NCBI RefSeq assembly: GCF_014696105.1
Contig: NZ_JACJPO010000049.1
Location: forward strand, 1 to 43,465
DNA length: 43,465 bases
From: Microcoleus sp. FACHB-1515
GTDB taxonomy: Bacteria; Cyanobacteriota; Cyanobacteriia; Elainellales; Elainellaceae
Reading direction: 5' to 3'
Below are positions 2,250 through 41,088 of the stretch, piece by piece. The translations under genes and the position numbers were made by a program. Under the pieces are notes generated by a model. It had not been told where the DNA came from. It searched no databases and saw only the letters and a program-made list of their open reading frames with translations. Each line of letters starts with the position of its first letter. Position 1 is the first letter of the stretch.

Positions 2250-5123
2250 CTAAGCCACCAGTTGCTCTAGCGTTTGCAGCAGCGTTTGCTCGTTATATGG
2301 CTTTGAGAAGTAGGCGGTTGCGCCCAAACTCATTGCCAGTTGGCGATGTTTGTCGCCGCTGCGCGAGGTGAGCATGGCGATCGGAATTTGCTCAAAGGCG
2401 GGCATCGATTTGACTTTGGCAAGAAAGCCGTAGCCGTCGAGTCGAGGCATTTCGATGTCGCAGATCACGGCTTGGATGGGCAGTCCGGTCGAAAGTTTTT
2501 CGAGTGCGTCTTCGCCATCTTTGGCCTGGGCGACTTCGTATCCGGCCTTTTCCAGCGTCAGGGCGAGCAGGCGGCGGACGTTGATCGAGTCGTCTACCAC
2601 AAGAATTGTGGGTTTGCGATCGATCGTCGTGGCAGAAGCCAAGGTGAGCAAAACGGGCGCGGTCGGCAGCATCGGCGGAGTGGGGGCAGGTGCAGCAGCC
2701 AGCCAGTGCAGCAGGTCGGGCACGTTGACTAGGGGCACGACGCGACCGTCGCCCAAAATGGTGCAGTTGCTAAATCCGGCGGGCATCGGCAGATTGCCTT
2801 CGACACGCCGGATTGCAACTTCCTGTTCGCCCCAGCAGCGATCGACCTGAAGCGCGACCATCTGCGTTCCCTGATTGACGATTAAGATCGTCGGGACGTT
2901 GATGACGGGCGGCGTTTCGAGTCCTTCCATTTGGCGCGGACAGTGGAACTTGAGCCAATTACCCAATCGCACAAGCTGGACGAGCGAATTTTGCCAGCCG
3001 ATCGCCTCGCTGCCTGCGGTTTGAATGACGCGATCGGCCTCCAGAACCGACATTTCTTCGATTACGTCGGTCGGGAAGGCGATCAGCATTCCGTTACTTT
3101 CGGCCAGCACGACGCGAGCGACCGAAAGTGTGAACGGAACGGAGATCGTGAAGACTGTTCCGACTCCCGCTTCGGTGTTGACCGTGATTTCGCCGCGCAC
3201 CTGTCGGAGGTTGCTGCGAACCACATCCATGCCGACGCCGCGACCGGACAAGGCTGTCACCTGATCTTTGGTGCTGAAGCCGGGTTCAAAAATCAGCGAC
3301 AGCAGTTCTTCGTCGCTGGCCGCTGCCAGCAGCGTTTCGTCGAGTCCCATTTGGCGGGCACGATCGCGCACTCGATCGAGCGGAATGCCGCCCCCGTCGT
3401 CGCGAATTTCGATCTGGGTGCGGTTGCCTTTGTGAAAGGCGCGAATTTCGATCGATCCGGTTTCGGGTTTGCCGCGATCGCGCCTGAGTTGAACGTTCTC
3501 GATGCCGTGATCGAAAGCGTTGCGAATCAGGTGCATCAGCGGATCGCTGAGCGCTTCGAGGATGTTGCGATCGACCAGCGTGTTCGCCCCTTGCAGCTTA
3601 AGCTGGACGGGCTTGTCGTACTGCAACGACAGCTCGCGCAGGGCTTTCGGGAAGCGCTCGACCACATCTGACAGTGGACGCATCCGAATTTGACTGAGAT
3701 TCGTCTGAAGCTGTTTGGCCGTTTTCTTGAGATCGTGGCTGGTCTGGTCGCTGTCTTCCAGGCCAAGCTCAATGTCGCTGGTGACTTCTTGAATCTGGAC
3801 GATCGTTTCCATCACCGACTGCGCCACGAGATGCACTTCGCCGTAGCGATCGAATTCGAGCGCGTCAAAGTTGAAGTCGTTTTCCGGCGGCAACTGGCGC
3901 AACTGCGTTTTGTCGTAGGTCGATCGCCACTGCGAATTGGCTTCGTCCAACACCTGGACGCGCTGAGACAGCATTCGCACCATGCTCCGCAAGCGCTTCA
4001 GGTGCAGATCGAGTCGATTGCGCTCGATCGTCAGTTCGCCAAACAAATCGTTGAGCGTGTTGAGCTGCTTCATCGGGACGCGCACCGAGTTGTCTGGCTC
4101 GTCCTCGATCGGTTCGGGCGCAACGCGATAGGCACTGGCGCGATCGCTCCGGGTCGACGCCGCGACAGGTTGCGGTTCCTCGGCTTCCGGTTCCGGGTAG
4201 AAAATTTCTTCCTCGGCTTGCGGATAGAAGAGTTCTTCCTCCGATTCCGCAATCAAATCGATCGCAGGCAGATCGTCAGCCTGAGCATGGAACGGATGCA
4301 CTTCGACGATCGTGGGTTCATCGCTGCTGCTAAATTCGATCGGCTCGATCGTTTCAGCGGCAATACCGGGAATCGATCGCGGCATCAAATCAAGCTGTCC
4401 GGCCAGCACGAGGGCTTGCGATCGCCGCCATGCTTGTAGGGCTTGCGTCGCGATCGACGTGATGTCGGGCGATTGAGCGAGGTGAAAGGCGATCGATTCG
4501 CAAAGCTGCACGAACGCTTCAATCTGAAGCATTTCACCCAGTCCGCCCAATTCTTGCGCCAAGACTTCGACTTCTTCACGCAGGCAGGGGTCTTGGGCAT
4601 TGAGGACAGATTCGAGCCGCTGGAGGCAGCCCTCGACCTCGGTTTCAAACAGCAGCGGCACGATATCTTGACCGTCTTCGGGAGACAGCATCGACTGGGC
4701 ATCTTCGTCTTGCGGATCGCCCAAGCGATCGTGCAGTTGCGTAAAGATCGATTCGACCTGCGATTCCAGCCAGCCTTCGGGCGGAACGATTTGATTTTTG
4801 CTGGCGGCGATCGACTGCGCGATGCAGTCAATTCCGCCGAGCAACAGCGCTTCAAGTTCTCCGTCCAGGGCGATCGAATTGCGCTGGACTTTCAGAACTT
4901 TGAACGAATCTTCTAGTCGATGGGCGAGGGCGCTCAATTCGTGGTAGCCCATCATGCCTGCGCCGCCTTTGATCGAGTGGGCAGCGCGGAGGGCGGCGTT
5001 GATTTTGCCGCTGTCGATGCCCTGTTGGGCAATGCCGAGGACGGCGGCTTCGAGCGTTCCTAAATAGGCTTGCGCTTCATCGAGGAACTGACGCTGAATT
5101 TCAAGTTCTTTCTCGTGTGACAC
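2250..5123 (-). CDS. pixL: CheA-type hybrid histidine kinase of the Pix phototaxis system
   Basis: A 957-residue hybrid kinase. An N-terminal Hpt domain carries the phosphorylatable histidine H49 in AAHSIKGGAG. An acidic, Pro/Glu-rich linker (about 270-340) leads to the dimerisation and ATPase core, with the N-box in LMHLIRNAFDHGIE, then RDDGGGIP and SGRGVGMDVV. A CheW-like domain follows, then a C-terminal receiver with D889 in VICDIEMP and the conserved Lys in YFSKPY. In Synechocystis the equivalent CheA-like protein autophosphorylates under control of the PixJ receptor and passes phosphate to PixG/PixH-type receivers that steer type IV pili. It starts 5 bases after pixJ, so the two are probably cotranscribed. 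The name rests on operon order and architecture. Confidence 0.93.
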   Translation of the reverse strand: MSHEKELEIQRQFLDEAQAYLGTLEAAVLGIAQQGIDSGKINAALRAAHSIKGGAGMMGYHELSALAHRLEDSFKVLKVQRNSIALDGELEALLLGGIDCIAQSIAASKNQIVPPEGWLESQVESIFTQLHDRLGDPQDEDAQSMLSPEDGQDIVPLLFETEVEGCLQRLESVLNAQDPCLREEVEVLAQELGGLGEMLQIEAFVQLCESIAFHLAQSPDITSIATQALQAWRRSQALVLAGQLDLMPRSIPGIAAETIEPIEFSSSDEPTIVEVHPFHAQADDLPAIDLIAESEEELFYPQAEEEIFYPEPEAEEPQPVAASTRSDRASAYRVAPEPIEDEPDNSVRVPMKQLNTLNDLFGELTIERNRLDLHLKRLRSMVRMLSQRVQVLDEANSQWRSTYDKTQLRQLPPENDFNFDALEFDRYGEVHLVAQSVMETIVQIQEVTSDIELGLEDSDQTSHDLKKTAKQLQTNLSQIRMRPLSDVVERFPKALRELSLQYDKPVQLKLQGANTLVDRNILEALSDPLMHLIRNAFDHGIENVQLRRDRGKPETGSIEIRAFHKGNRTQIEIRDDGGGIPLDRVRDRARQMGLDETLLAAASDEELLSLIFEPGFSTKDQVTALSGRGVGMDVVRSNLRQVRGEITVNTEAGVGTVFTISVPFTLSVARVVLAESNGMLIAFPTDVIEEMSVLEADRVIQTAGSEAIGWQNSLVQLVRLGNWLKFHCPRQMEGLETPPVINVPTILIVNQGTQMVALQVDRCWGEQEVAIRRVEGNLPMPAGFSNCTILGDGRVVPLVNVPDLLHWLAAAPAPTPPMLPTAPVLLTLASATTIDRKPTILVVDDSINVRRLLALTLEKAGYEVAQAKDGEDALEKLSTGLPIQAVICDIEMPRLDGYGFLAKVKSMPAFEQIPIAMLTSRSGDKHRQLAMSLGATAYFSKPYNEQTLLQTLEQLVA

Positions 5124-5128
5124 CGATG

Positions 5129-8100
5129 TTACCCCCTTTCGCCGACTTCAAATTCACCGACCGAGGCTTGCAGTTCTTGAGCGATCGCCACCGTCTGCCG
5201 CAAGGCTCCCGACACCTGCTTGGAAGAAGTCGAAGTGCGCTTGGAGACTTGCGCGATGTCTTTCATCAGGCGGGTCACTACCTCCGAGGTTTCCACCTGC
5301 GAAGCGGTCGCCTGCGAAATCGACTGCACCAACTGATCGATCTGCTGCGACACATTGAGAATCTGACTGAGGCTTTGCTTTGCGCCCTCGACAAGCTGCG
5401 TGCCTTCAACGACTTGAGCGGTACTTTCTTCCATCGCCTGAACGACCATGCTAGTTTCGCGCTGGATGTTGTTGACGATCGCCTCAATCTCTTGCGTGGC
5501 GGCACTCGATCGCGCAGCCAGTTCGCCGACTTCTTCGGCCACGACTGCAAAGCCCTGACCTTCTTCTCCGGCTCTGGCCGCTTCGATGCCCGCATTGATG
5601 GCGAGCAGGTTGGTCTGCATGGCAATCTGGTTAATCAGCGAGACGACCTTGGAGATTTGCTGCGAGGCTTCACCCAATCGCTTTACTTTCTTGGCCGTTT
5701 CGCCAACGGTCTCGCGCAGGCTGAGGATGTTCTGGACGGTGAGATCCATCGCCTGACCACCGGATTCTGCCGTAACCGAGGCGGTGCGGGCGACTGCGGC
5801 GGCTTGCTGAGCGCTTTCGGCAACGGCCTGGATCGATCGCGTCATTTCCTGCATCGAGTCCAATGTCCGCGTTGTTTCTTCTGCCTGAATCAAAGCGGCT
5901 TCGGCCAGTTGGCGAATCGCGCCTTCGTTTTCACCCAGCGAGCTGTTGACCTGCGTTGCTGAGTCTTTTACCTTCGTGACGATTTGGCGGAGGCTTTCCA
6001 CGATCGAGTTGAAGAAGTCTGCCACCGTGCCGATTTCGCCTGCCGTCACGTCCGCGCGGACGGTCAAGTCACCTCTGGTTGCGCCTTCCACATCGCTCAG
6101 CAGGCCAAGAAGCTGCATTTGCAGCGATTCTTTTTGCTGACGGCGTTCTTCGGACAAGGCTTCCGCTTCGAGGCGGGCTTGTTCGCGCTGGGCAAACAGG
6201 TCAGCTTGCTCTAGCGCAAAGCCAAGCTGAATTCCGGCCTGCCGCAAAAAGTTGATGTCGGCTTCTTTCCAGTGGCGCGGCTGTCTGCACTGATGGACGA
6301 TGAGCAGGCCGATCAGTTGCTCTTTGAGCAGAATCGGCGCGACGATGTTCGCCTTCACGTGCATCGGGTCAAGCTGACGTTTGTAGCAATCGCTCAAACC
6401 AGATTCTGCGATGTTGTCCAGCGCATGAACACGACCTTGCCGATAGCGTTCAACGTACTGATTGCCAAAGCACGGATCGTCTAGCTTGATGTCGAGGGCG
6501 GGCGGGAAGCCCGGTTCGATCGATTCCGCGATCACCTTGCCGCCCCAGTCGGCATCGAACTCGTAGACCATGCAGCGATCGGCCTGCATTGCCGCCTGCA
6601 CATCGCGAACGACCGTGCGAAAAATCTGAGTGCGATCGAGCGAGTCGCGCATCCGCGACACCACTTTTGTCAACTGGCGTTCGCGCTCTGCCGTCAACTG
6701 TTGCTCTTCCAAGATTTGAGCTTGCTTGACCGCATAGCCAACCTGAACGCTGAGCTGCTGAATCAAATTGATTTCTCCGGCGTCCCACTGACGCGGGCCA
6801 GAACACTGATGGACGCAGAGCAGGCCGATCAGTTCATCTCCGACCAGAATTGGCGCAACCATGTTTGCCTGCACTTCCAGACGGCGCAAAATTTCGCAGT
6901 GACAGGCGCTCAAATCCGAGCGGTTGAGGTCTTCCACAGTGGAGATTTTGCCGCTCTTGAAGCGATCGATCGCTTCGGGCGTCAGCGGATCGTGAATTGT
7001 TTGGCCGATCGCCCGCATCCAGCCGCGACTGACGGCTTCAGCCGAAATTTCGCCACTCTTGAAACCAGGATGGAAGCGGTAAATGACAACGCGATCGACC
7101 TTCAGCACCTCGCGAATTCCTTCCACCGAAGTCCGCATAATCTCGTCACTCTTGAGCGACTGACGAATCTGGCTGGTCAGTTCGGCCAGCAGTTCGGCGC
7201 GGCGGGTAACTTGTTCTTGCTGCTGATATTGACCTTGCAGCTCAGCTTCCGACTGCGAAACGGTATCGGCCAAGTTGTTGAAGGTCTGCGTGAGCTGGCC
7301 GACTTCATCGCGAGCAAACAGTTCGGCTCTCGCTCGGCGATCGCCTCCTGCGAATGCGATCGCTGTTCGTCGCAAGCGTTCAATTGGGCTGACGATCGCA
7401 TGACCAAGCAGCATTGCGAGCAAAACATCCACGCCGATCGCCAGCGTTGCCAAAGCCAACTGGAGCTTCAAGGTGTTTTGCACCAGTTGATTGAGTCCGG
7501 CTTCGGACGTGCCGCGCACCAAAACTGCGACAGGTTCACCATTGAGTTGAGGAACGGTTTGGGCGGCAACGGTGTAGGTTTGGTCGCCGATTTTCAATCG
7601 CTGGGCGACGGGTTCGCCCGATGCCACTGCCCGCTCTAATAAATTTGAGCTGGGCAAGGCGACGTTTCGCGCGACCTCATCGATCGCTGCCCCGTCGGGT
7701 AGCTTGGCCGACGTTGCCAGGGCAAATTCCCCGTTGGGCTGAAGCTGATACACCGCGCTGTAGCCGTTGTCAAAGGCGTCCACCGTGTCGGTTGCGATCG
7801 GCGCTTTGCCGTTGACGAGATCGCCTGAGAGCAACACGCCAACCAGCCGTTGCGTATCCGGGTTGATCACGGGCGTCGCCACATAGCGAATCAGCGCATC
7901 TTGATTGCTGAAGCCGTTGGGCAGGGGTGGCGCTTCCTGCTGAAGTTCTGCCCAAGACACGATCGCGCTGGCTTTAATCTGACGTGGATTATTTAGAACC
8001 GCCTTCACTAAGCCTTGCGGGTCAAAAGGCTGTCCGCTGCGATCGCGATTGGCGTTGGCAATGATTTGTCCATCGGTTCCAATTAGCGTCGCGTATTCGA

Positions 8101-8548
8101 TGTTGCGCGATTTCAGTTCGTTCGCCAAAATTCGCCGCACATCCTGCCGCAAATCGCTGGAGAGGGTTTGGTTGCTGCTGTGGGCTTGCGCGGCTTCAAC
8201 GATCGCGGCGTTTTCCGACTGACCCCGGAAGCCAAAGCCCATGCCGTTAATTTTGGTGTTGTACTGAATGTCGGTCACGGCCAGTTCTGACTTCGCCTGA
8301 TGAACCAGTTGGGCGCGTCCGGCTCCAATAATCAGCAGCGAGCTGACGCCCACTAGACCGACGATCGAGATCGCCTCAGACGTAAACAAGCCGAGAAGCT
8401 GCTTGCGACGGACGGGCAAATTGTAGAACCATTGCAGTGCAGGATTGGGGCGGAGGGGATTGACCGGGCTGGATGGAGCAGGGACGGGCGATCGCTCAGG
8501 CTGTTCCCAGCCCTCATCGGGCTTTGCAGATCGAATCTCGATCGTCAT
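5129..8548 (-). CDS. pixJ: Chemoreceptor-type photoreceptor with two GAF domains (PixJ)
   Basis: A 1139-residue receptor. TM1 lies near residues 52-77, an extracytoplasmic sensor region spans about 80-355, TM2 is about 360-385, then a HAMP segment (388-440), GAF1 (455-610), GAF2 (630-785), a second HAMP-like stretch (815-865) and the MCP signalling domain with its conserved hairpin near 965-1010 ([19 protein letters not shown]). Both GAFs carry cyanobacteriochrome signatures. GAF1 has C549-H550 at the canonical bilin site, followed by [11 protein letters not shown], but no DXCF. GAF2 has DPCF (C693) and canonical C721, followed by Tyr rather than His. PixJ proteins sense blue/green light for positive phototaxis. 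The spectral type of each GAF here is inference. It sits 69 bases after pixI. Confidence 0.93.
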
Positions 8549-8617: not shown

Positions 8618-9151
8618 TTAGGCTTCACTCTTGACGCCGAGGAGAATGGGCGACTGGACGATCGCCTCGGCATCCAAAATCAAAATGATTTCTTGCGTTT
8701 GGTCTTGCTGTTGCAGAACGCAGCCGCGCAGAAACGGAATCAAACTGAGGCTGACTTGACCGAGCGGCGACTGAATCGAGTCGGGTGAAATCCAAGACAA
8801 GCCTTCGACCTGCTGCACGGCCAAACCCAAGGGAACCGTACCGACCTGCACCATAACGAGGTTGTACTGCAACTTGTGCTGCGTGGCGTTGACTTGCAGG
8901 CCAAGCAATTGCGCGAGATCCACAACCCAGTTGACGCGACTGCGGCGATTCATCAAGCCGAGCATGGCGGCGGGCATATTGGGCATTGGCGTTAGGCGGC
9001 GCGAGGGCAGCACGATCGCTTCTTGCACATGCCGCATCGAAAAAGCAGCAGCGATATGATTACCCAGATGAAATTTCAGGTACGGATCGCCTGCTTTCGG
9101 AGTCGGCTGGCGACCCTGGGGAATTTGCGGAACGAGGGCAGAAGAATTCAT
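8618..9151 (-). CDS. pixI: CheW-like coupling protein of the Pix system
   Basis: A 177-residue CheW-fold protein: strands around YLKFHLGNHIAAAF, the MRHVQEAI segment, and the NRRSRVNWVVDLAQLLGL region that replaces the usual RG...PVIDL of chemotaxis CheW. It should bridge the MCP domain of PixJ and the P5 domain of PixL in the cytoplasm. It begins 7 bases after pixH and is followed by pixJ, the gene order of the pix (tax1) operon of Synechocystis. Length is normal for the family. The N-terminal 20 residues are Pro/Gln-rich and probably disordered. Confidence 0.9.
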   Translation of the reverse strand: MNSSALVPQIPQGRQPTPKAGDPYLKFHLGNHIAAAFSMRHVQEAIVLPSRRLTPMPNMPAAMLGLMNRRSRVNWVVDLAQLLGLQVNATQHKLQYNLVMVQVGTVPLGLAVQQVEGLSWISPDSIQSPLGQVSLSLIPFLRGCVLQQQDQTQEIILILDAEAIVQSPILLGVKSEA

Positions 9152-9158
9152 GAATGCT

Positions 9159-9536
9159 TTACCCCGCTACTGACCGCACGGCTCGCACCAACTGTTCGCG
9201 CGTAAACGGCTTGGTGACATATGCATCTGCACCTTGCTTCATGCCCCAAAGCCTGTCAATTTCTTGATTCTTTGAGGTGCAAATCACGATCGGCACGTTT
9301 TCAGTCGCCGCATGTTTCTTCAAGCTGCGGCACAGTTCAAATCCGCTCATTCCCGGCATGACGACATCGGTAATAATCACGTCGGGCTTGAAGTCGATCG
9401 CTTTTTGCAGCGCGTCTTTGGCATTAATCACGCCGATGACGCTGTAGCCACTTTCACGCAAATAGTGGCTCATCAATTCCATTTCAGATGGCGTATCTTC
9501 GACGATCAAAATTGTCGTTGTCAGCGTTGCATTCAT
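9159..9536 (-). CDS. pixH: CheY-type response regulator of the Pix system
   Basis: A stand-alone 125-residue receiver. The acidic pair is E13-D14, the phosphoacceptor D57 is in VIITDVVMPG, the switch Thr is in VICTSK and the conserved Lys is K109 in VTKPF. I chose the ATG at 9536 because it gives the standard receiver start and is preceded by GGAGAAG at proper spacing. The longer frame upstream runs back into the end of pixG with no purpose. It lies 44 bases after pixG and 7 before pixI. By analogy with Synechocystis it receives phosphate from PixL and tunes type IV pilus motility. Confidence 0.92.
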   Translation of the reverse strand: MNATLTTTILIVEDTPSEMELMSHYLRESGYSVIGVINAKDALQKAIDFKPDVIITDVVMPGMSGFELCRSLKKHAATENVPIVICTSKNQEIDRLWGMKQGADAYVTKPFTREQLVRAVRSVAG

Positions 9537-9580
9537 GTTGATAACTTCTCCAGGTTGATTTGCACTCTTGATCAAGCGGT

Positions 9581-10663
9581 CTACATCAAATGCAAATGCT
9601 TGAACACCATTTTGATCAAATCTGGCTGAGTGAATGGCTTGGTGAGATAGCCAGATGCGCCAACTAATTTCGCTTTGGCGCGATCGATAAATCCGGTATT
9701 TCCAGTCACCATAATCACCGGAGTTTGCTTGAAGTTTGGATGCCGCCGCAGCAGCGAACAAAGTTCATAGCCATCCAAGTTTGGCATCGTCACATCGAGC
9801 AAAATTAAATCCGGCTTGCTGCGGACAATTTGCATCAAAGCGCTGACCGGATTGTTGATCATCAAGACGGTGAAAATCTTGTCATCAAGATAGCTGTGAA
9901 TGGCTTGTAAGACCGTTGGACTATCGTCAATGCAGGCGATCGTAAACGTGCCTTTGGCTTGCGGTGTCGGCGGAGTTGGCGCATTCGATCGCGTCGAACC
10001 AACAGCGGCAAGCGGCCATTTTTTCGGGGCAGGTTCAACGGTCAAGGCGGGAATTGGCGCACTGGCGCTAGCGATCGAGGTTGAGGCCGGAGCGGGCGAC
10101 GAATCGCGCAGCGGCGTTACAATGCGTCCGGCAGCTTGCTTTTGCCGCAGTTGCATCTGGCTCAGCTCCACCAAGGGACGCAGATCAAGCTGACAGAATT
10201 GTGGGCGATCGTTCCAGCTTTGTTCTTGCAGTTCATAGCTGGCTTCTTGCAGGGCGAGAAACGATTCCAGCACTTCTTTGGCAAGTTCTTCAATCAGCAA
10301 AGCGGCTTGATCGCGACCCAAGTAGTGCTGTTCAACCAGCCAGCAAATTGCGTCATAATCGGCTACTGACTGACCGGGATTTTCCGTTGGTTTTTCAAAC
10401 AACAGACGGGTTTGAACGCGAATTGCGCTGACAAGCGTGGGAACTTGAATGCTGAGGCGGCGCAGGTGACGATCGAGGCGATCGAAGGTTTCGATCGAGC
10501 AGGTTGCAAACAGTAGTTTGCCTTTGCTGAGATACAGCGACCAAGAGGTGAGGCCGCTAGAAACTTGCAGATGACCAGTGGTTTGACGGCTGGCAAGCTG
10601 TGCCAAGACACTGAGCGGATGAAACTTGTGAATCCGATAGCCAGTCATGGGAAGGGTGTTCAT
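9581..10663 (-). CDS. pixG: PatA-type response regulator of the Pix system
   Basis: A 360-residue protein. The N-terminal DUF4388/PatA domain (about 8-180) begins with the typical HPLSVLAQLASRQTTGHLQV. A Pro/Ala/Ser linker (about 188-235) leads to a C-terminal receiver with D246-D247, phosphoacceptor D290 in LILLDVTMP, T320 and K342. PatA-type regulators head pix- and pil-chp-type operons in cyanobacteria; in Synechocystis PixG is thought to act on the pilus assembly machinery. It is the first gene of the six-gene minus-strand run. Its promoter must lie in the 670-base region upstream, which also carries a tandem 14-base repeat. Confidence 0.9.
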   Translation of the reverse strand: MNTLPMTGYRIHKFHPLSVLAQLASRQTTGHLQVSSGLTSWSLYLSKGKLLFATCSIETFDRLDRHLRRLSIQVPTLVSAIRVQTRLLFEKPTENPGQSVADYDAICWLVEQHYLGRDQAALLIEELAKEVLESFLALQEASYELQEQSWNDRPQFCQLDLRPLVELSQMQLRQKQAAGRIVTPLRDSSPAPASTSIASASAPIPALTVEPAPKKWPLAAVGSTRSNAPTPPTPQAKGTFTIACIDDSPTVLQAIHSYLDDKIFTVLMINNPVSALMQIVRSKPDLILLDVTMPNLDGYELCSLLRRHPNFKQTPVIMVTGNTGFIDRAKAKLVGASGYLTKPFTQPDLIKMVFKHLHLM

Positions 10664-11335: not shown

Positions 11336-13924
11336 CTACCTCAGCAGCCGCTTGATTTTCGCGTGCTGCTGGCGATCGAGATGCGTTGGAAAGCTCAGTT
11401 CCATCACCATTCGCTGCAATCTGCCTTCTGGAGTTGAGCGCGAAAGCACGTCGATCGCTTCAATTTGGGCAAGAACGCTTTGTGCTGGCATGGCCTCATC
11501 GCGGCTGATCAGTAGCGCAATGATCGGATGAAGTTGTTCTAAGTGTTCCCACTGATCGATCGAGGTATCCAGCTCCAGACGTAGATCACGTGTACCCATT
11601 TCGGTGATGATGCCACTGTAGGAATCGCCTTCCCACCCTTCCCAATACAGTTCGGCTGTGGCCTGCATCTGCTTGCGGACTTTCACGCCGATTTCCGGTC
11701 TCAGTTCGCGGAAAGCTCGCTTCAAGCTGGTGGCGATGAAGTGAATCGAGGCCAGCGGATTGTCTGCCTCGGCGCGACTTTGCGAATACCACTGCTGCAC
11801 ATCCGAGTAGAGCACCAGCACCAGGTCGTCAAGCTGGGTGCGGCTGACGTTGACAAAATCGATCGAAAGTAAGGTTTGCAGCTTGTCGGTGGCCGTTGCT
11901 CGCAGAATGTGAGCGTCTAGCAAAGCTCGCGCTCCGTAGTCTCCAATCAGTTCGAGGCGGACGCGATCGGCAATATTCGGCCACACGTCCAGCAACACTA
12001 AAGCGCCAGTTTCGCTGATGTTGACCGTTTGGCCTGCCCAGCTTTCGTTGTCTGTGTGGACGATCGCCGTAATTTCCCTGGGCAAACGGTGAGCGCGGCG
12101 AAGCTGTGGCTGCTCAAAGGCGGCAAGGCAAGCAGCCACCACCAAGACGATGTTGAACGCACACCAAATTGCGTTAATCAGAACCGCCTGCGTATTTTGG
12201 GGACTGAGAATCAGCCAGAACGGAACGGCGAGCAGCGACGCACCTGCCACAACGCCCAAAATCACCAGCAGGCGCATCGACTCAAAATCGAAACTGCGCT
12301 TGGTGACGACTAAGCCTTTGTCTGTGACGTTGAACGAGCCGAGCTTCGGGTTAATCAGCGCGAACATCGTGACGAGTCCGGCCTGAAACGACAAGGCAAA
12401 TTCATAGATTTCGTTCCAGAAGGAAAAGCGGACGTGCTTGTAGGCGATGTGGTTGGTCTGCATTGAGAGGACGATGTGCGGCAAGGCATAGGCCAAGGTT
12501 TCGAGTCCCAAGCCGTTGACCGAGTTGATGCCAAATAAAAGAAACAGCGTCGGAGCGATCGCATACATCAAGCGCGGAAAGCCAAAAAAGAAATGCGACG
12601 TGGCGGAAAAATAGCAAATTCGCTGCGCCAAATTGAGCTTTAGCTTGCGATTCAACAGCGGATTTTCCAGCCGCAAAATTTGCGCCATGCCTCGCGCCCA
12701 GCGGACTTGCTGCCCCACATAGGACGAGAATTTTTCGGGTGCAAGTCCGGCCACCATGATTTTGTCGTAGTACACGGTTTCGTAGCCGAGCGAGTGCAGC
12801 CGCAAAGACGTGTGGCAATCTTCCGTCACGGTTTCTGTGGCAATGCCGCCGACTTTGAGCAGGTGCGATCGCCGCACGACTGCCGCCGATCCGCAGAAAA
12901 ACGCTGCATTCCAAAAGTCGTTGCCTTTTTGCAGCACTTTGTAGAACAGTTCGTTGCCGACGGGAACTTGTCCTCCGGTCTGCAAGTTGCGCTCAAACGG
13001 ATCAGGGTTATAGAACCAGTGCGGCGTTTGCACAAGCGAGACGGAATCTTTGTAGAAGAAGCCGACAGTTTCCTTGAGGAAGCTGCGGGTCGGAATGTGG
13101 TCGCAATCGAGAATCAAGACGAGATCGCCTTGTGTCCGCTGCAAAGCCGTATTGATGTTTCCGGCTTTGGCGTGGTCGTTGTTGTCGCGAGTCAACATCG
13201 TGCAGCCGAGTTCCAGGCACATCTGCCGCAGTTCTTCTCGTCGATCGCGATACTTCTCCGCCCGTCCGTCATCCAAAATGTAAACACGCTTTTTGCTGGC
13301 CGGATAGTCGATCGCTAAAGCACCCAGCGCGGTTTTGCGGACGATCTCGACATCTTCGTTGTAGGTGGGAATGTAGATATCAACGCTGAACCAGTCGGCA
13401 ACGGGACGATCGCTGAAATCGATCGACTTGCGGTGATTGATGCGTAAAGTTTGAAAATAGGCCAGGGCAAGCGTGGCGATCGCATACAGTTCCGCTAAAT
13501 ACAGCAGCAGCGAAAAAATTGTGTTGATGATGCCGTCAAAGTTGAGCGTGTAGTTGGTGCGGTAGTAGAGGTAGCGCATCGTCACCAGCAGGCTCAAAAC
13601 AATCAGCAGCAGGTGCAAATATTCGCTGGTGCGCGTTTCCGGTTGACGTTCTTCCAAATGCAAAAACAGCGAACCCGCCGCAATCAGCACGATCGCGACG
13701 ATGCTCTGCTGCAAAATTCCTGGTCGAATCGTCAACAGCGGCACAAACAGCCAGATCAACGCACCAATGAGCAGCACAAGCTGGCGGCGATCGAGCCACT
13801 GCAAGACGGCATCAAATCCGGCAGGCAGGCGATCGACCAGCCAGCGCGTCAAGTCGGTATTGAATTTTTGCCAGCGGCGAGAAGGTTTGCGAAGGCGCGA
13901 TCGGTGGGAAGTGAGCCAGGTCAT
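11336..13924 (-). CDS. bcsA: Cellulose synthase catalytic subunit with PilZ domain (BcsA-like)
   Basis: An 862-residue membrane glycosyltransferase 2 protein. TM helices lie near 48-92, 103-120 and 132-158. The cytoplasmic GT-A domain has D218-D219, the DxD D273-C-D275, T367-E368-D369 and Q405-x-x-R408-W409, the full set for processive UDP-glucose polymerisation. More TM helices follow (about 448-610), then a PilZ domain with R609-xxx-R613 and N636-x-S638-xx-G640, the c-di-GMP-binding pair. BcsA makes beta-1,4-glucan and threads it through the inner membrane, activated by c-di-GMP. It is the last gene of the operon, 126 bases after bcsB, with a large hairpin in that gap. The PilZ motif strongly supports c-di-GMP control; the exact polymer is inference. 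Confidence 0.93.
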   Translation of the reverse strand: MTWLTSHRSRLRKPSRRWQKFNTDLTRWLVDRLPAGFDAVLQWLDRRQLVLLIGALIWLFVPLLTIRPGILQQSIVAIVLIAAGSLFLHLEERQPETRTSEYLHLLLIVLSLLVTMRYLYYRTNYTLNFDGIINTIFSLLLYLAELYAIATLALAYFQTLRINHRKSIDFSDRPVADWFSVDIYIPTYNEDVEIVRKTALGALAIDYPASKKRVYILDDGRAEKYRDRREELRQMCLELGCTMLTRDNNDHAKAGNINTALQRTQGDLVLILDCDHIPTRSFLKETVGFFYKDSVSLVQTPHWFYNPDPFERNLQTGGQVPVGNELFYKVLQKGNDFWNAAFFCGSAAVVRRSHLLKVGGIATETVTEDCHTSLRLHSLGYETVYYDKIMVAGLAPEKFSSYVGQQVRWARGMAQILRLENPLLNRKLKLNLAQRICYFSATSHFFFGFPRLMYAIAPTLFLLFGINSVNGLGLETLAYALPHIVLSMQTNHIAYKHVRFSFWNEIYEFALSFQAGLVTMFALINPKLGSFNVTDKGLVVTKRSFDFESMRLLVILGVVAGASLLAVPFWLILSPQNTQAVLINAIWCAFNIVLVVAACLAAFEQPQLRRAHRLPREITAIVHTDNESWAGQTVNISETGALVLLDVWPNIADRVRLELIGDYGARALLDAHILRATATDKLQTLLSIDFVNVSRTQLDDLVLVLYSDVQQWYSQSRAEADNPLASIHFIATSLKRAFRELRPEIGVKVRKQMQATAELYWEGWEGDSYSGIITEMGTRDLRLELDTSIDQWEHLEQLHPIIALLISRDEAMPAQSVLAQIEAIDVLSRSTPEGRLQRMVMELSFPTHLDRQQHAKIKRLLR

Positions 13925-13976
13925 TTTGGGGGTGTTGGGTGTCGGGTGTCGGTGTAAAAGCGTGGCTCGACTGTGG

Positions 13977-14047
13977 CAGGCCCTCCGCCCTCATCCCCTA
14001 CCCAACTCCCCCAGGGAGTTGGGTAGGGGATGAGGGCGGAGGGCCTG
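13977..14047. repeat. Perfect 34-bp inverted repeat between bcsB and bcsA
   Basis: The arms 13977-14010 and 14014-14047 are exact reverse complements, separated by three bases, giving a 71-base near-perfect palindrome. The left arm is C-rich (CCCTCATCCCCTACCCAAC), a pattern seen in dispersed palindromic repeats of cyanobacterial genomes. It ends 3 bases before the bcsB stop codon region and lies 53 bases upstream of the bcsA start, in an operon read on the minus strand. It would form a very stable RNA hairpin that could protect or attenuate the message. Confidence 0.9.
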
Positions 14048-14050
14048 AAG

Positions 14051-16375
14051 CTACCCGCGCTCTGCGGTCATGCGCTTGAGGAGAAGCTGACTGACGCCGT
14101 AAAGGACGATCGCGGCAATCACGATCGCGGGAGCCAAAACGTACCAGTTGCTCCGCACGAATCTCAGGAGGTTCCAGCGATCGATTCCCCTCAGTTCGCG
14201 CACAGGCGCTTGCTGGAGAAATTCCAGATTGTAGTCTCCGGGTTCGTAGGGCGAAGCGTCGGGGCGATTGGCGCTAATTAGAACGGTGTCGCCTTGAAGC
14301 TGGCTAAACAGCGGGTCGTCGCTGATCAGTTGGCGCACCTGCTTGAGGCCAGCAGGCGACTGACCGCTGAGAGCAAGCAGGACGCGATCGCGATTCCAAG
14401 GCGAAAGAATTTGTTTGACTAAGCCTTCGGGGTCGGGCAGCGTTTGGATTTGGCTTTGCTGCCACTGCCGCGACGATCGATCGCCCAGCTTGAAGCCTTG
14501 ATCAGAAGAGAACACTTCGGGATAGGGAAAGTTGGCCTGCGTGCCGATCGCAATCAAGTTCCGGTCTTTTCGCAAGTCTTCTGATAGTTTGCTGCTGCGA
14601 GTGACGACAAGCTGAATCGAGTCGGCTTGGCTGAGGCGTCCGAGGCGTTCGCTGACGCCCAGCAGCAAAAGCAGATCATCGGCAGTCGGTTTGTCCGGAA
14701 CAACGATCGCCGTTGTGGACAAGTCTTGCGGGGCAGCAAACGGATAGCCGAACTGCATCAGCTTCAGGTTGGGAAGCTGCGTGACGTTTTCGCGCTTGAG
14801 GTCGAAGTTGGTGTCGGTGTGAATCGTGCCCCAAAGCTGCTGATCGGTGACGCGACTGCACGATCGCCGCTCGCGTGGGTCAAGCCGAAAGTTGATTTGC
14901 ATCCGCGAGCTGGGCTTGACGGCTTCTGGCGGAATGCTGAGCTGGAGTTCTTCATTTTCGCCGCCGTTAATTGAACTGAGGCGATCGCCGCCGATTGCCA
15001 CACCGTCGATCTTCACTTCCACAAGAGACGTCAGCGGATTCACCTGTGGACCGTAGCTGTAGCGCAGGGTCATCGTGCTTCCGGGCAAAAAGCGATCGTC
15101 CGGCAAAGCGCGAAAGTCCACTTCGTAGGCCGGAGCGTGGGAACCCCAAACCGTCACATCTTGCGGCGTGGAGCCGTCTGGGTTCTTCAGGTCGGCCAGG
15201 GTGAAGCGATCGCGATCGGGCAGATATTTCGGCCATTCCCGCGCAGGCGGACTGGCAACCTGCGTCAGTTCGTTGACGACGATCGCTTGTCCTGTGCCGA
15301 TTTGCTGGTCGCGTCCCTGCACGAGAAACTGAACAGCTTTTGCCACGCCTGCCTCGGAATTTCCGGTCGCCACCAAGACGGGAACTTTGTTTTTCTCGGC
15401 GCTGGTCAGCACCAAAAGGCCAGCCGTATCGGGAATTGGTTTTTGCTGAGCGTCGAGGAATTTGCCGTCTTTGAGGGCGATCGGCAGCTTCAGGGCAGCG
15501 ATCGCGCTTTGGCTCTTGGGCGTTCCAATGATGACAAGCTTTTCATTTTCCTCGACCTGATCAAGCGTTGACACCAAGCGCGTTTCCATTGCGCGATAGT
15601 CGGCAATGCGTCCGAGCGAAGCTTGATAGCGAGAGACTGCGGTGAGCCACGCTTCATCGATCGACTGCGGCTGCATCAGAGCCAGGCGATTCGCTTCCAA
15701 ACTCAGCTTGTCGAAAATTGGATAAGGATACTGGCTGAAGTTGAGCGGAATCGCTTGCGGCTCAAACTTGAAGACCAGCTTGGAATCGGGCAGAATCTCT
15801 GTCCACAGTGAGGGGTCGAACGGGTCTTGGGTACAGGTGGGCGAGTTGTTTTGCAGTCCGGCAACGACAATTTCGTTGTAGTCGTGGATGATTTCGGGCG
15901 GCACGGGATAGGAAACGCTGCCGATTTGTCCTTCGGGCATGTTCATCGGCGTGCTGCCAATGCTCGTGCCGTTCACCAAAACCGTCAGATTCGATCGACT
16001 CGCATACAGCGCTGGCGAATGCCGAAACTTCAGCAAAACCTGCATGTTGGCGGGCTTCCAGTTGCGCGGACGGGTAAAGGCCAATCGCGCTTCGTCATAG
16101 ATGCCGTCGAGCCGCAGGCGATTTCCGACAATTGGCGATCGATTAAACTCCAGCACATAGGTTCCCGGTTCGGCAGGAGCAACGGTCGGGGTGGCACTGG
16201 CGGCAGGCAGCGGAATCGTGGGGGCAGGTGTGGCAGCAGGAGAGGGAGCAGTTTGTGCGTTCACCGATCGCCCCATCAAAACAAAGCAGCAGGAGAGCAG
16301 CAGCAATCCGGTGAGCAGCACGGACTTGATCGATCGCCGTGACCAGCGACGAGACGGAGAGAAGCGATTTTTCAT
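14051..16375 (-). CDS. bcsB: Cellulose synthase regulatory/periplasmic subunit (BcsB-like)
   Basis: A 774-residue protein. An N-terminal signal segment (about 15-40) leads to a Pro/Ala/Thr-rich linker (40-70). The BcsB core repeats a carbohydrate-binding-type beta domain and a flavodoxin-like domain twice, with the family hallmark TCTQDPFDPSLWTEI near residues 182-196. A single C-terminal TM helix (about 748-768) is followed by a short basic tail. BcsB caps BcsA on the periplasmic face and guides the growing glucan; its C-terminal anchor is needed for BcsA activity. It sits between the TPR gene (106-base gap) and bcsA, as expected for a bcs-type operon. Confidence 0.9.
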   Translation of the reverse strand: MKNRFSPSRRWSRRSIKSVLLTGLLLLSCCFVLMGRSVNAQTAPSPAATPAPTIPLPAASATPTVAPAEPGTYVLEFNRSPIVGNRLRLDGIYDEARLAFTRPRNWKPANMQVLLKFRHSPALYASRSNLTVLVNGTSIGSTPMNMPEGQIGSVSYPVPPEIIHDYNEIVVAGLQNNSPTCTQDPFDPSLWTEILPDSKLVFKFEPQAIPLNFSQYPYPIFDKLSLEANRLALMQPQSIDEAWLTAVSRYQASLGRIADYRAMETRLVSTLDQVEENEKLVIIGTPKSQSAIAALKLPIALKDGKFLDAQQKPIPDTAGLLVLTSAEKNKVPVLVATGNSEAGVAKAVQFLVQGRDQQIGTGQAIVVNELTQVASPPAREWPKYLPDRDRFTLADLKNPDGSTPQDVTVWGSHAPAYEVDFRALPDDRFLPGSTMTLRYSYGPQVNPLTSLVEVKIDGVAIGGDRLSSINGGENEELQLSIPPEAVKPSSRMQINFRLDPRERRSCSRVTDQQLWGTIHTDTNFDLKRENVTQLPNLKLMQFGYPFAAPQDLSTTAIVVPDKPTADDLLLLLGVSERLGRLSQADSIQLVVTRSSKLSEDLRKDRNLIAIGTQANFPYPEVFSSDQGFKLGDRSSRQWQQSQIQTLPDPEGLVKQILSPWNRDRVLLALSGQSPAGLKQVRQLISDDPLFSQLQGDTVLISANRPDASPYEPGDYNLEFLQQAPVRELRGIDRWNLLRFVRSNWYVLAPAIVIAAIVLYGVSQLLLKRMTAERG

Positions 16376-16481
16376 GGAGTTCCTAGTTCAAGATGCGGGA
16401 ATCGGAAGTTGGGCTTCCGTAAGCGTCAGCCGAACGAAATCGGGAATCGGCGTTTGGGCTGAGACCCAATTCTTGATGTGT

Positions 16482-18689
16482 CTAATACCGCTCCCAACTC
16501 GGTTGGAAGCCGCGCCTTCTCAGTAGATCAACCTGGATGCGGCGTATCCGGGATTCGGTTCCATCAATGTTGCGAAGCTGCTCGATCGCGCTCAAGGGCT
16601 GGTCTTGCACCAAGCTCAAATCGGCCAAAATCTGCCGCACCTGGCGATCGCCCGGACGCAGACTGAGAACTTGCTGATAGAGAGCAGTTGCCTCGGCATA
16701 GTTGCGCTGCTGAAAGCGGACTCCGCCCAGCGCAGCGATCGCATCGGCATTTTCCGGTTGGCGATCGAGCAGCGTCGTGTAGGCTTGGCTGGCAAGGTCG
16801 AGGTCGCCAAGCTGCTGCGCCAGTTCGCCCTGCACAAAATACACGGTCGGGTCTTGCGGATTGCGAGCGATTAGCTCGTTGACTTCAGCGATCGCCCGAT
16901 TGGGGTCTTGCTGAGCGACAACCTGGATGCGGCGGCTGGCAATGCCGATGTTGTTCGGATCGATCGCCAGCAGTCGATCGTAGAGTGTCGATCGCGATGC
17001 GTCTGGAGGCAAGGCGGCGACGAGGCTAAACAGTTCCGGTGGCGTTTCACTCGAAGACTGCCAGCGATCGAGAACGCTTTCGGCTTCGGTTTCGCTGAGG
17101 CGATCGCTTTGGTAGGCCAGCGTTGCGCGACCGAGTTGGGCGGCAGCATCGTCCGGACGGGCGGCGAGAATTTCGTCATAAACGGCGATCGCGCCTGCTG
17201 AATCACCTTGGGCGACGAGAATGCCCGCCAGTCCGCGCCGTGCTGCCAGATTGGTGGAATCGCGGTTGAGAATCGCTTGATAGCGCTGGCGGCTGGCGTC
17301 GAGATTTCCCTCGCGGCGATCGAGGTCGGCCAAGAGCAAATCCGACGCGGCATCTTGCGGATTGCGACCGGCATAAATTTGGATGGCTTGCCTGGCGGCT
17401 GCGTAATCTCCCTGTGCCGTCAGCATTTGAGCGATGCGGAACTGCAAGAACGGCTCGTCAACTTCAGCAGCGATCGATCGATAAATCGTCAGCAGTTGCG
17501 GGTCAGGATTGTCAAGCGGCACAAGAGCGCGAGCGAGCGAGCGGCGTTTTGTCTCACTATCAGCAGCCTGGACAAGATTCGTTAGCTGACTGACAAATTG
17601 CGATCGATCGATTTGTCCAAGCTGCACTTTCAAGACAAGCTGCTTCACCTGCAAACTGAAGTCCTGCGGCTGCACTTGTGCGTAAAGCTGAAGGGCTTCG
17701 GCTCTGGTGGCTGGAAGTTCGCTCATCACGTCGGCGGCTTCCACGAGCAGCGCGAAACCTGTGGCTTGGGGCAGCACTTGGCGATAGAGGTCGATCGCTT
17801 CCGCCGTGAGAGTGGGATTGTTGGTTTCACGAGCGATCGCGCTGAGTGCCCGTGCCAGCGGCAATCGATCTTCGCTTCGACCCCGGAATGGTTCGAGCGT
17901 CGTAAGCGATCGATCGACCTGCTGATTGGCGGCATAGGCAACGGCCAAGGCTGCTCGAATCTCTGGTGTAGGGCTGGTGCGGAGGCGTTCAGAGAGGATG
18001 GCGATCGCTTGTTCCACCTGTCCTGTTTCCTGCAAGGCCAAACCATAAGCGGGAATTGCCGCAGTGGGAATCACGCCGCGATAGCGATCGAACAAGGCCG
18101 CACTCTGCGAATAGTTGCCGCTGTAGGCATAGACCTGAGCCGCACCCAGCAAAATTTCTGGAGTCGGATTGCCAGCCAGAACAATTTCGTAGTCGGCGAT
18201 CGACTCGGCAAATTGACCCTGATAGCCGTAGAGCAAAGCGCGTTGTCCTCTGGCGGCGGTGTCGTTGGGCGATCGCTCCAGCAAGGTCGTTAATGCGCCG
18301 ATGCCGATGCGGTTCCATTCCGGGCGAAAGCTTGCCAGCGTGCCGATCGCCCGCAGCGCCACATCGTTTTGAGCATCGATCGACAAAGCACGATTGTATG
18401 CTTGCCAGGCATTCGCGTCCTGTCCGGCTCGCTGATAGGACTGCGCCAAACCGAGCCACGCTTCGATCGACCGGGGATTTTGCTGTGTCGCTCGCTGAAA
18501 TGTGGGAATGGCGCGATCGATCCAGCCCCGATTGAGGTAGTCGTTGCCTTGGCGAATCAGCGGCGTGGTTTGGGCGGTTGCGGGCAGGGCGATCGCACCT
18601 GCAAGCAAAAGGGCAATTGTCCACTGTCCCACCGTTCGATTCAAGCTGCCGACACTCGATCGCTGCAAATTATGTTCCCAGTTCATCAT
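16482..18689 (-). CDS. Periplasmic TPR protein, BcsC-like without the barrel
   Basis: A 735-residue protein with a signal peptide (cleavage after about residue 40, ATA-Q) and more than a dozen tetratricopeptide repeats to the C-terminus, for example the unit ending QNPRSIEAWLGLAQSYQRAG. BcsC in proteobacteria has such a TPR solenoid fused to a C-terminal outer-membrane barrel; here no barrel follows. Its start overlaps the stop of the upstream barrel gene by four bases (ATGA), and a perfect AGGAGG precedes its start, so the two are translationally linked. Likely role: a periplasmic scaffold between BcsA/B and the outer-membrane pore. Assignment to cellulose export rests on TPR content and operon position. 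Confidence 0.85.
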   Translation of the reverse strand: MMNWEHNLQRSSVGSLNRTVGQWTIALLLAGAIALPATAQTTPLIRQGNDYLNRGWIDRAIPTFQRATQQNPRSIEAWLGLAQSYQRAGQDANAWQAYNRALSIDAQNDVALRAIGTLASFRPEWNRIGIGALTTLLERSPNDTAARGQRALLYGYQGQFAESIADYEIVLAGNPTPEILLGAAQVYAYSGNYSQSAALFDRYRGVIPTAAIPAYGLALQETGQVEQAIAILSERLRTSPTPEIRAALAVAYAANQQVDRSLTTLEPFRGRSEDRLPLARALSAIARETNNPTLTAEAIDLYRQVLPQATGFALLVEAADVMSELPATRAEALQLYAQVQPQDFSLQVKQLVLKVQLGQIDRSQFVSQLTNLVQAADSETKRRSLARALVPLDNPDPQLLTIYRSIAAEVDEPFLQFRIAQMLTAQGDYAAARQAIQIYAGRNPQDAASDLLLADLDRREGNLDASRQRYQAILNRDSTNLAARRGLAGILVAQGDSAGAIAVYDEILAARPDDAAAQLGRATLAYQSDRLSETEAESVLDRWQSSSETPPELFSLVAALPPDASRSTLYDRLLAIDPNNIGIASRRIQVVAQQDPNRAIAEVNELIARNPQDPTVYFVQGELAQQLGDLDLASQAYTTLLDRQPENADAIAALGGVRFQQRNYAEATALYQQVLSLRPGDRQVRQILADLSLVQDQPLSAIEQLRNIDGTESRIRRIQVDLLRRRGFQPSWERY

Positions 18690-20152
18690 CGTCCTCCTAA
18701 TAAGTCAAAGTCCGCGCGGATGCGAAAGCCCAAAACGGTTTCCGAAAAAGCGTCGCGCTGCTGAAAAGAAATGCCCGCCCGCAGATTCGGTGAAATGCGA
18801 GCGTCGTAGAAAAGTTCCAGCACGTCCGGCACAGCGGCATTTTCGGCTTGTCGCAGGTCGCTGTTGGAAAGCTGCCGCCCGTAAGCAAGGCCGAGACGAT
18901 CGTCCGTCATGAACAGATCCAGCAGATTGAAGCCGAAGCTGAACGTGTCGCCGCCGCGATCGAGTTCCAAATTTTCGTAGCGTCCGTAGCGGCCAAACAA
19001 GCCAAGATTCGCGCTTGGAATCCACCATTCAGCGTTGATGCCGTAAGCCTGTTCGCGATCGTCCGACTCCAAGCCAAAGTTGCCATTGCCGCGATCGAAG
19101 CCGAAGATTTCGCGGAAGCCGTCGTTTTGTCCGTCGTCGCGATCGCTGCTGAACGTGCCGCGCACGATTAGATCGCCCAGGCGCACGCCCAACTCGCCCG
19201 CAAAGCCATCAAATGCGAACTCATCGAGATTGCGGCTGGAAGAAAAGGTGGCGGCTTTCACTTCGATCGAGTCGTTCACCTGCCAAATCACCAAGGCAGA
19301 TGGACGCGAACCAATGCCCGTTGCAGCCAAAGCCGGATTCGTTTGAAAGACCGGATTGAAAAAGTGCGTCACGCCATCTTTGGCGAAGCTGTTGCGATCG
19401 AAATACGAAGTTAGATCGACCATGCCTGCAACAAAGCGCAGTCCGGGCAAGCCTTCGGGCGAAGCGGCAACATACAGTTCGTTGATGTTGAAGCCTTCCG
19501 ATTCCGAATCGACGAATGCGTTGCCTGTGGTCAAATCGATCGTCGTTCCAATCAGCAAATTGGGATTGATGGCGTATTCGGCGGTCAGTCGCGCTCGTGC
19601 TGAAGTGTCATCACCTTGCACCACGATCGCGCCCTGTGCCCGCACCAGTGGTTCACCCACCAGATCGCTTGCTTGTTGCGAAGCTGGCTCTGGCTGGGGT
19701 TCGCTCGATCGCTGTGCCACCCGATCCGGCTCCATTGCAGTTGGGGCGATCGATGTGGCTGGAATGGCAGTCGGGACTGATTCTGCTATTTCTGGTTGAG
19801 TCACAGTCGGGGCGATCGATGCGGCCGGAATGACATCAGGCGCGATCGCATCTGCTGCCAAACTGTCCGCAGATGTGGGTACGACGGAATCGGCAATTTC
19901 TTTTGACTCGATCGCGGCCAAATCCGCTGCTTTGGGAAGGGAAGCGATCGCTTCGCCTTCGGGCGAGTCAGTGGCGGAAAGTGCTTCAAGAGCTTCGTTG
20001 GAGGCGATCGGCTGGTCATCCGGCAGAATGGAGTCGAGCGCGATCGGATTCGATTCAGCTTGAGCAGGAACAGACAGAATGCAAATGAGCAGGCTTGTAG
20101 ATGCTGTGCCCAGGAGGGGGCGCAGCCAAGGAACAGACGATTTTCGATTCAT
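18686..20152 (-). CDS. Outer-membrane beta-barrel protein, probable export pore
   Basis: A 488-residue protein with a signal peptide (about 1-32, VPAQA-E). A long Ala/Pro/Ser/Thr-rich linker spans about 33-165, then a C-terminal region of alternating amphipathic strands (about 172-488) typical of a 14-18 stranded barrel. Segments such as LRFVAGMVDLTSYFDRN and WWIPSANLGLFGRYGRYE recall carbohydrate-selective OprB-like porins, but there is no SLH domain as in the usual cyanobacterial porins. It is the first gene of the operon and overlaps the TPR gene by four bases. Together they look like a split form of BcsC. It could instead be a general porin; position favours a polysaccharide pore. Confidence 0.8.
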   Translation of the reverse strand: MNRKSSVPWLRPLLGTASTSLLICILSVPAQAESNPIALDSILPDDQPIASNEALEALSATDSPEGEAIASLPKAADLAAIESKEIADSVVPTSADSLAADAIAPDVIPAASIAPTVTQPEIAESVPTAIPATSIAPTAMEPDRVAQRSSEPQPEPASQQASDLVGEPLVRAQGAIVVQGDDTSARARLTAEYAINPNLLIGTTIDLTTGNAFVDSESEGFNINELYVAASPEGLPGLRFVAGMVDLTSYFDRNSFAKDGVTHFFNPVFQTNPALAATGIGSRPSALVIWQVNDSIEVKAATFSSSRNLDEFAFDGFAGELGVRLGDLIVRGTFSSDRDDGQNDGFREIFGFDRGNGNFGLESDDREQAYGINAEWWIPSANLGLFGRYGRYENLELDRGGDTFSFGFNLLDLFMTDDRLGLAYGRQLSNSDLRQAENAAVPDVLELFYDARISPNLRAGISFQQRDAFSETVLGFRIRADFDLLGGR

Positions 20153-41070: not shown

Positions 41071-41088
41071 ACAAGTTTGCTGTAGAAA

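Follow-up and report, generated by a model that had tools for sequence, protein, structure and literature searches.

A PixJ-type receptor with two probable bilin-binding GAF domains in a predicted phototaxis operon of Microcoleus sp. FACHB-1515

The window, by which we mean the whole 43,465-nucleotide stretch of DNA analyzed, carries on its minus strand a gene set whose predicted domains mark it as a pix/tax1 phototaxis operon. The ORF at 5129-8548 is translated from its ATG into a protein of 1139 amino acids. The genes of the operon and the domains of the receptor are the following:

2250..5123, minus strand: CheA-like kinase with Hpt, HATPase_c, CheW and receiver domains (pixL position; Pfam)
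5129..8548, minus strand: pixJ-type gene, 1139 amino acids, with HAMP, GAF1, GAF2 and MCP signaling domains (ORF translation; Pfam)
7259..7411, minus strand: HAMP domain, residues 380-430 (Pfam PF00672, E 1.4e-12)
6701..7201, minus strand: GAF1, residues 450-616, DP-L type cyanobacteriochrome-like GAF (PDB phmmer, tree, model)
6185..6685, minus strand: GAF2, residues 622-788, DXCF cyanobacteriochrome (PDB phmmer, tree, model)
5246..5794, minus strand: MCP signaling domain (MCPsignal), residues 919-1101 (Pfam PF00015, E 2.5e-40)
8618..9151, minus strand: CheW-like gene (pixI position; Pfam CheW)
9159..9761, minus strand: CheY-like receiver ORF (pixH position; Pfam Response_reg), with an uncertain start that makes it overlap the next ORF
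9581..10663, minus strand: DUF4388 and receiver gene (pixG position; Pfam)

Pfam recognizes the ORF as a HAMP-GAF-MCP gene, which shares its operon with genes for CheW, CheA and receivers; on this basis, the product is a putative PixJ-type receptor with a presumed role in phototaxis. Pfam GAF matches two stretches of the receptor, the best of which spans residues 638-779. A similar order of neighboring genes, with ORFs judged by eye, is found in locus L147 of a Synechocystis relative, in L149, and in two relatives, L150 and L151; L149 comes from the genome in which TePixJ is encoded, with 147 of 147 residues identical. In L151, the CheA gene is followed by an ORF that by eye resembles CheW (13282-13908). 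A pentapeptide-repeat protein (1518-2250) directly follows CheA in the window, from which the CheW-like gene therefore seems to be missing. The receptor is similar to Synechocystis PixJ1 (Sll0041) of the tax1 locus, described in an excerpt of PMC5812497 as a membrane MCP with two GAF domains, bilin in GAF2, and a pixG-H-I-J-L gene set.

GAF2 is by sequence an ordinary DXCF domain, with both the second cysteine of the D-x-C-F motif and the canonical cysteine. A motif script located D691-P692-C693-F694 and C721-Y722:

6467..6478, minus strand: DPCF motif D691-F694 with second cysteine C693 (motif script)
6383..6388, minus strand: canonical C721 followed by Y722 (motif script)

The best PDB match of GAF2 by sequence is TePixJ 3vv4 (phmmer, E 4.4e-38). 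The TePixJ GAF (3vv4, 4glq) shares the DPCF second cysteine and the canonical cysteine with GAF2, and is 40-42% identical to it in the Foldseek match; however, GAF2 has Tyr instead of His after the canonical cysteine, and the same profile detected a single GAF in TePixJ (L076). The AlphaFold model of GAF2, calculated from a four-row alignment of the window and L031, has a pLDDT of 87.7, with Foldseek TM scores of 0.89 to 6ob8 (query-normalized) and 0.92 to 4glq (target-normalized) among the 50 matches listed. GAF2 belongs to a tree group of 61 rows, 58 DXCF and three other, with a support of 94/91. The DXCF class comprises 173 domains, reduced to 155 after the removal of identical ones. Among its 151 unique domains with the canonical cysteine, 29 have Tyr as the following residue, and the idea that Tyr722 makes GAF2 unusual was rejected. 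The Lys at the position after Tyr722 is rarer than Tyr722 itself (2/151).

In GAF1, the motif script located D520-P521-L522-T523 and C549-H550-C551, and three residues of the putative chromophore site were mapped to the DNA:

6989..6991, minus strand: Asp520, aligned with Asp56 of miRFP670nano (residue mapping)
6902..6904, minus strand: Cys549, canonical bilin cysteine position (alignment, mapping)
6896..6898, minus strand: Cys551, two residues after Cys549 (C-H-C), lineage-specific (conservation census)

The earlier note had described C549-H550, Leu-Thr at the DXCF site, DPCF with C693, and C721-Tyr, all of which we find, but it had overlooked C551. It had also proposed an alignment to characterized cyanobacteriochromes, and C549 indeed falls on the canonical bilin cysteine of the solved structures. 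The DXCF site of GAF1 reads DP-L, with no D-x-C-F second cysteine, and is one residue shorter; therefore, the DXCF cysteine is deleted rather than replaced. The F-x-S-G turn is one residue longer in the alignment. With a GAF fold and a canonical Cys-His pair, as judged by alignment and Foldseek, GAF1 resembles a cyanobacteriochrome domain that would hold a bilin. Asp56 of miRFP670nano forms hydrogen bonds with the pyrrole nitrogens of the chromophore (PMC6336887, excerpt). GAF1 His580 aligns with the engineered His117 of miRFP670nano, which contacts ring D. A further cysteine typical of GAF1, C578 (6815-6817), is positioned two residues before His580 and occurs in 55 of the 58 DP-L domains with C549, compared with 5 of the 173 in the DXCF class. 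We rejected C578 as a marker of chromophore loss, since all five DP-L members that lack C549 keep it.

The closest solved structure to GAF1 by sequence is the GAF of PPHK from Leptolyngbya sp. JSC-1 (6oap; phmmer, E 1.3e-33), and PPHK is also the closest by Foldseek among the matches listed. The AlphaFold model of GAF1, from the four-row alignment of the window and L031 and with no bilin in the model, has a pLDDT of 83.8 and a query-normalized TM score of 0.87 to PPHK 6ob8 among the 50 matches listed. PPHK lacks the DXCF cysteine, as GAF1 does, and binds PCB; however, it has neither the DP-L deletion nor the F-x-S-G insertion nor C551, and it groups with the NpR3784-derived reference. The 50 Foldseek rows listed for each of GAF1 and GAF2 are phytochrome-superfamily structures or engineered derivatives. 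VIA Z-scores of GAF1 are 21.9-23.3 among the 50 entries listed, many of them bacteriophytochromes placed beside cyanobacteriochromes, and so the fold alone singles out no subfamily.

A tree was calculated without the motif columns from 113 GAFs of cyanobacterial loci, to which five solved references were added. Loci L052, L053, L057, L058, L062, and L064 had been left out beforehand, and a 72% score filter then kept 113 of the 252 domains. GAF1 is located in a DP-L clade of 31 rows (support 100/93), sister to the DP-F-REG type, with which it forms a group of 40 rows (98/83). The references for XRG and NpR3784/PPHK group in a clade of their own, without GAF1 (100/89), in which the NpR3784 lineage comprises two references, one of them engineered: miRFP670nano, evolved from NpR3784 (PMC6336887, excerpt), stands for NpR3784. 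GAF1 differs from the XRG lineage in having a gap at the Trp column of W-x-D-x-x-L, and from the DXCIP lineage in having C549 and no DXCI. According to an excerpt of PMC6628166, every cyanobacteriochrome GAF has the canonical cysteine except for the DXCIP lineage. In the class profiles, L093_g1, L096_g1, and L126_g3 were reassigned by hand to the group of their tree neighbors. No description of a DP-L GAF with a C-H-C site was found in the open-licence PubMed Central literature searched.

Conservation was surveyed in a census of domains of at least 120 amino acids from loci chosen by their similarity to the window, and DP-L members are therefore enriched in it. C549 is kept in 58 of the 63 DP-L domains found, and in 55 of the 60 PixJ-type GAF1s, a count that includes the window and leaves out three domains of L134, where no MCP domain was seen. 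Fifty-four of the 60 lie in ORFs with a recognized MCP motif; none was seen in the ORFs of the GAF1s from L039, L052, L057, L062, L064, and L112. In the 54 ORFs that combine an MCP domain with a DP-L GAF, DP-L followed by DXCF is the commonest arrangement (39), and the variants include DP-L-DXCF-DXCF (nine) and DXCI-DP-L-DXCF-DXCF (two). The pairing of DP-L with DXCF, on whose spread the earlier note was silent, is widespread among PixJ-type receptors. A query made of the two GAFs has strong matches (E up to 1e-85), not every one of which is of DP-L type, in 26/36, 28/63, and 14/42 genomes of three families. A scan of the genome contigs provided one locus, L031.

Five DP-L members (L055, L109, L110, L119, and L124) have R, E, or S in place of C549. 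They represent about four losses in the dereplicated 31-row tree, with L109 and L110 counted as one by inference, as L110 was removed by the score filter. Asp520 is changed in three of the four loss events and kept in all 27 rows with C549 (hypergeometric 0.0009); over all 63 domains, the co-loss of Asp520 and C549 has a Fisher value of 8e-6, which ignores relatedness. L119, one of the four losses, keeps D520 and C551. Forty-two positions are conserved in at least 93% of the domains with C549, and 33 of these are unchanged in all five members without it, which therefore look like cases of site loss and not of domain decay. Besides C549, C551, and D520, the changes affect H550, R529, and V564 in two of the five members each, and three positions in one of the five. 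A loss centered on the chromophore site is expected if the intact members, that of the window included, hold bilin. Five additional DP-L PixJ GAF1s (L165, L166, L168, L174, and L182) each have C549, C551, and D520, and contain no further loss of C549. As the four natural losses show, some species can dispense with the GAF1 cysteine. In L109, L110, L119, L124, and L055, a DXCF GAF remains in the same protein. These PixJ relatives are perhaps natural versions with one chromophore fewer, and the cysteine-less DP-L members are ready-made controls.

The losses of C549 inside the DP-L clade are also what might be seen if GAF1 were a degenerate structural or dimerization domain, with C549 a relic and GAF2 the sole photoreceptor, as in Synechocystis PixJ1. 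There, PCB is bound to the second GAF only (PMC5812497, excerpt), in agreement with what had been claimed beforehand. The comparison can be made through genome G230, a Synechocystis relative whose Slr1393 GAF3 closely matches 5dfx. The PixJ GAF1 of G230 and of G265, from the same genus, reads ISSSHRQW with no cysteine at the site, whereas GAF1 of the window has C549, H550, C551, and D520. In the tree, the G230 domain (L096) is located outside the DP-L clade, near DXCI-type domains, and the canonical cysteine is present in 0/14 domains of the DXCI class. Two other genomes of this Synechocystis-like genus, G097 and G241, have two DXCF GAFs in place of the Cys-less GAF1. Since GAF1 stands apart from the Cys-less GAF1 of the relative, the Synechocystis precedent is no argument against bilin here, and we rejected the dismissal of GAF1 on that basis. 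Judged through G230 and G265, the GAF1 behind the negative result from Synechocystis is most likely of a different kind. Moreover, if C549 were a relic, one would not expect C549 and C551 to persist in 55 of 60 relatives from three families, or D520 to be missing only in members without C549. We consider a degenerate GAF1 unlikely. How a receptor for blue and green light controls movement in many colors is unclear in Synechocystis (PMC5812497, excerpt), and relatives whose second bilin site is of another type offer a direct test of this multi-color question.

The conserved C551 could point to a different chemistry for GAF1. It is present in 55/55 PixJ-type GAF1s with C549. Among the 151 unique DXCF-class domains with the canonical cysteine, not one has Cys at +2; this position is occupied by Leu (113), Ile (26), Met (4), Val (4), Lys (2), or Arg (2). 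Furthermore, C551 is gone in three of the four C549-loss events. GAF1 may be a tandem-cysteine photosensor, with C551 as the site of a second, reversible bond to the bilin, or with a disulfide between C549 and C551 that controls the loading of bilin; such a domain might be redox-gated or possess a short-wavelength state. However, the second-cysteine positions named in the literature passages are DXCF, insert, alpha3-helix, and CXDXXL, and +2 is not among them. C551 is also retained in L119, which lacks C549, and a search for phytochromes (PHY) provided 30 loci (L195-L224), in none of which the longest ORF contains C-x-C. GAFs 3-5 of L134, where no MCP was seen, are of DP-L type and keep C549, with C-H-R in place of C-H-C, another point against a tandem-cysteine function; these domains are useful for studying the role of C551. 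We consider the tandem-cysteine function very unlikely. It is quite unlikely that the DP-L, C-H-C domains, paired with DXCF in PixJ of three families, are an uncharacterized lineage in which C551 takes part in chromophore chemistry as a new second-cysteine position.

We favor the reading in which the PixJ-type receptor carries two bilin chromophores, one in each GAF, and consider it quite probable from the residues and their conservation. Both pigment-pocket domains look intact, so the receptor probably holds two light-sensing pigments, and not just one as in the standard model strain. The case for bilin binding by GAF1 is good but indirect, and comes from the conservation of C549 and C551 and the co-loss of Asp520. 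The genome contains one bilin reductase gene (PF05996). In GAF2, the bilin would be attached to C721 and form a second, reversible bond to C693, which would give a blue-absorbing dark state and a photoproduct at a longer wavelength, probably green. In GAF1, C549 would be the site of covalent attachment, Asp520 would contact the pyrrole nitrogens, and His550 would be located beside the bilin. As GAF1 lacks the DXCF cysteine, its dark state would lie at a longer wavelength than that of GAF2. The two domains, joined in series, would signal to a single MCP domain and to the neighboring CheW/CheA/CheY set, and therefore the receptor could weigh two light bands.

The earlier note had proposed two chromophores of different color class in one protein. 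Two bilin sites have good indirect support from conservation, the Asp/Cys co-loss, the predicted fold, and the tree placement; regarding color, two dark-state classes are likely, because GAF2 has a DXCF cysteine and GAF1 has none. At the columns that we take to be blue-shift Phe positions, chosen in part from a literature passage, GAF2 has M, V, and M. With its DPCF motif and no blue-shift Phe, GAF2 fits the blue/green rather than the blue/teal type. GAF1 has V488, I501, and L557 at these presumed positions, and Phe occurs there in 0/31 DP-L rows. The color of GAF1 is not derivable from its sequence, and C551 could change it. That GAF1 is a red/green cyanobacteriochrome of XRG or NpR3784 type is the least probable reading: it shares the canonical Cys-His and the absence of a DXCF cysteine with AnPixJ (red/green GAF2, 3w2z), its Arg529 matches an Arg of AnPixJg2, and PPHK and AnPixJg2-like domains are among its nearest solved sequences, but the W-x-D-x-x-L loop of AnPixJ is absent, with a gap at the Trp column in all 31 DP-L rows, and GAF1 falls outside the XRG and NpR3784/PPHK clade. 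On motif we rejected the red/green label, which is unsupported because GAF1 has neither the WXDXXL Trp nor any Phe of the kind associated with a blue-shifted photoproduct. For PPHK, a PCB-binding protein, the absorption of the Pg form is at 562 nm (PMC11480761, excerpt).

MCP receptors for several colors are already known. PtxD (NpF2164) of Nostoc punctiforme, an MCP receptor for phototaxis, has several bilin GAFs that differ in color (PMC5812497, excerpt); we liken it to the present receptor by description only, and its GAFs number seven, compared with two here. The part for which we found no description in the literature searched is the DP-L, C-H-C GAF lineage. PixJ of Phormidium lacuna contains four GAFs and an MCP domain (PMC8794177, excerpt) and mediates a yellow-light effect (PMC13383048, excerpt).

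A cellulose-type synthesis cluster adjoins the pix operon (11336-20152, minus strand):

11336-13924, minus strand: glycosyltransferase 2 with PilZ domain
14051-16375, minus strand: BcsB
16482-18689, minus strand: TPR protein
18686-20152, minus strand: OprB-like protein

Exopolysaccharide genes are thus positioned beside motility genes, and the exopolysaccharide is probably under c-di-GMP control. Farther along the window, at 37594-42462 on the minus strand, are two neighboring AAA_35 proteins, one of which has 12 significant WD40 stretches.
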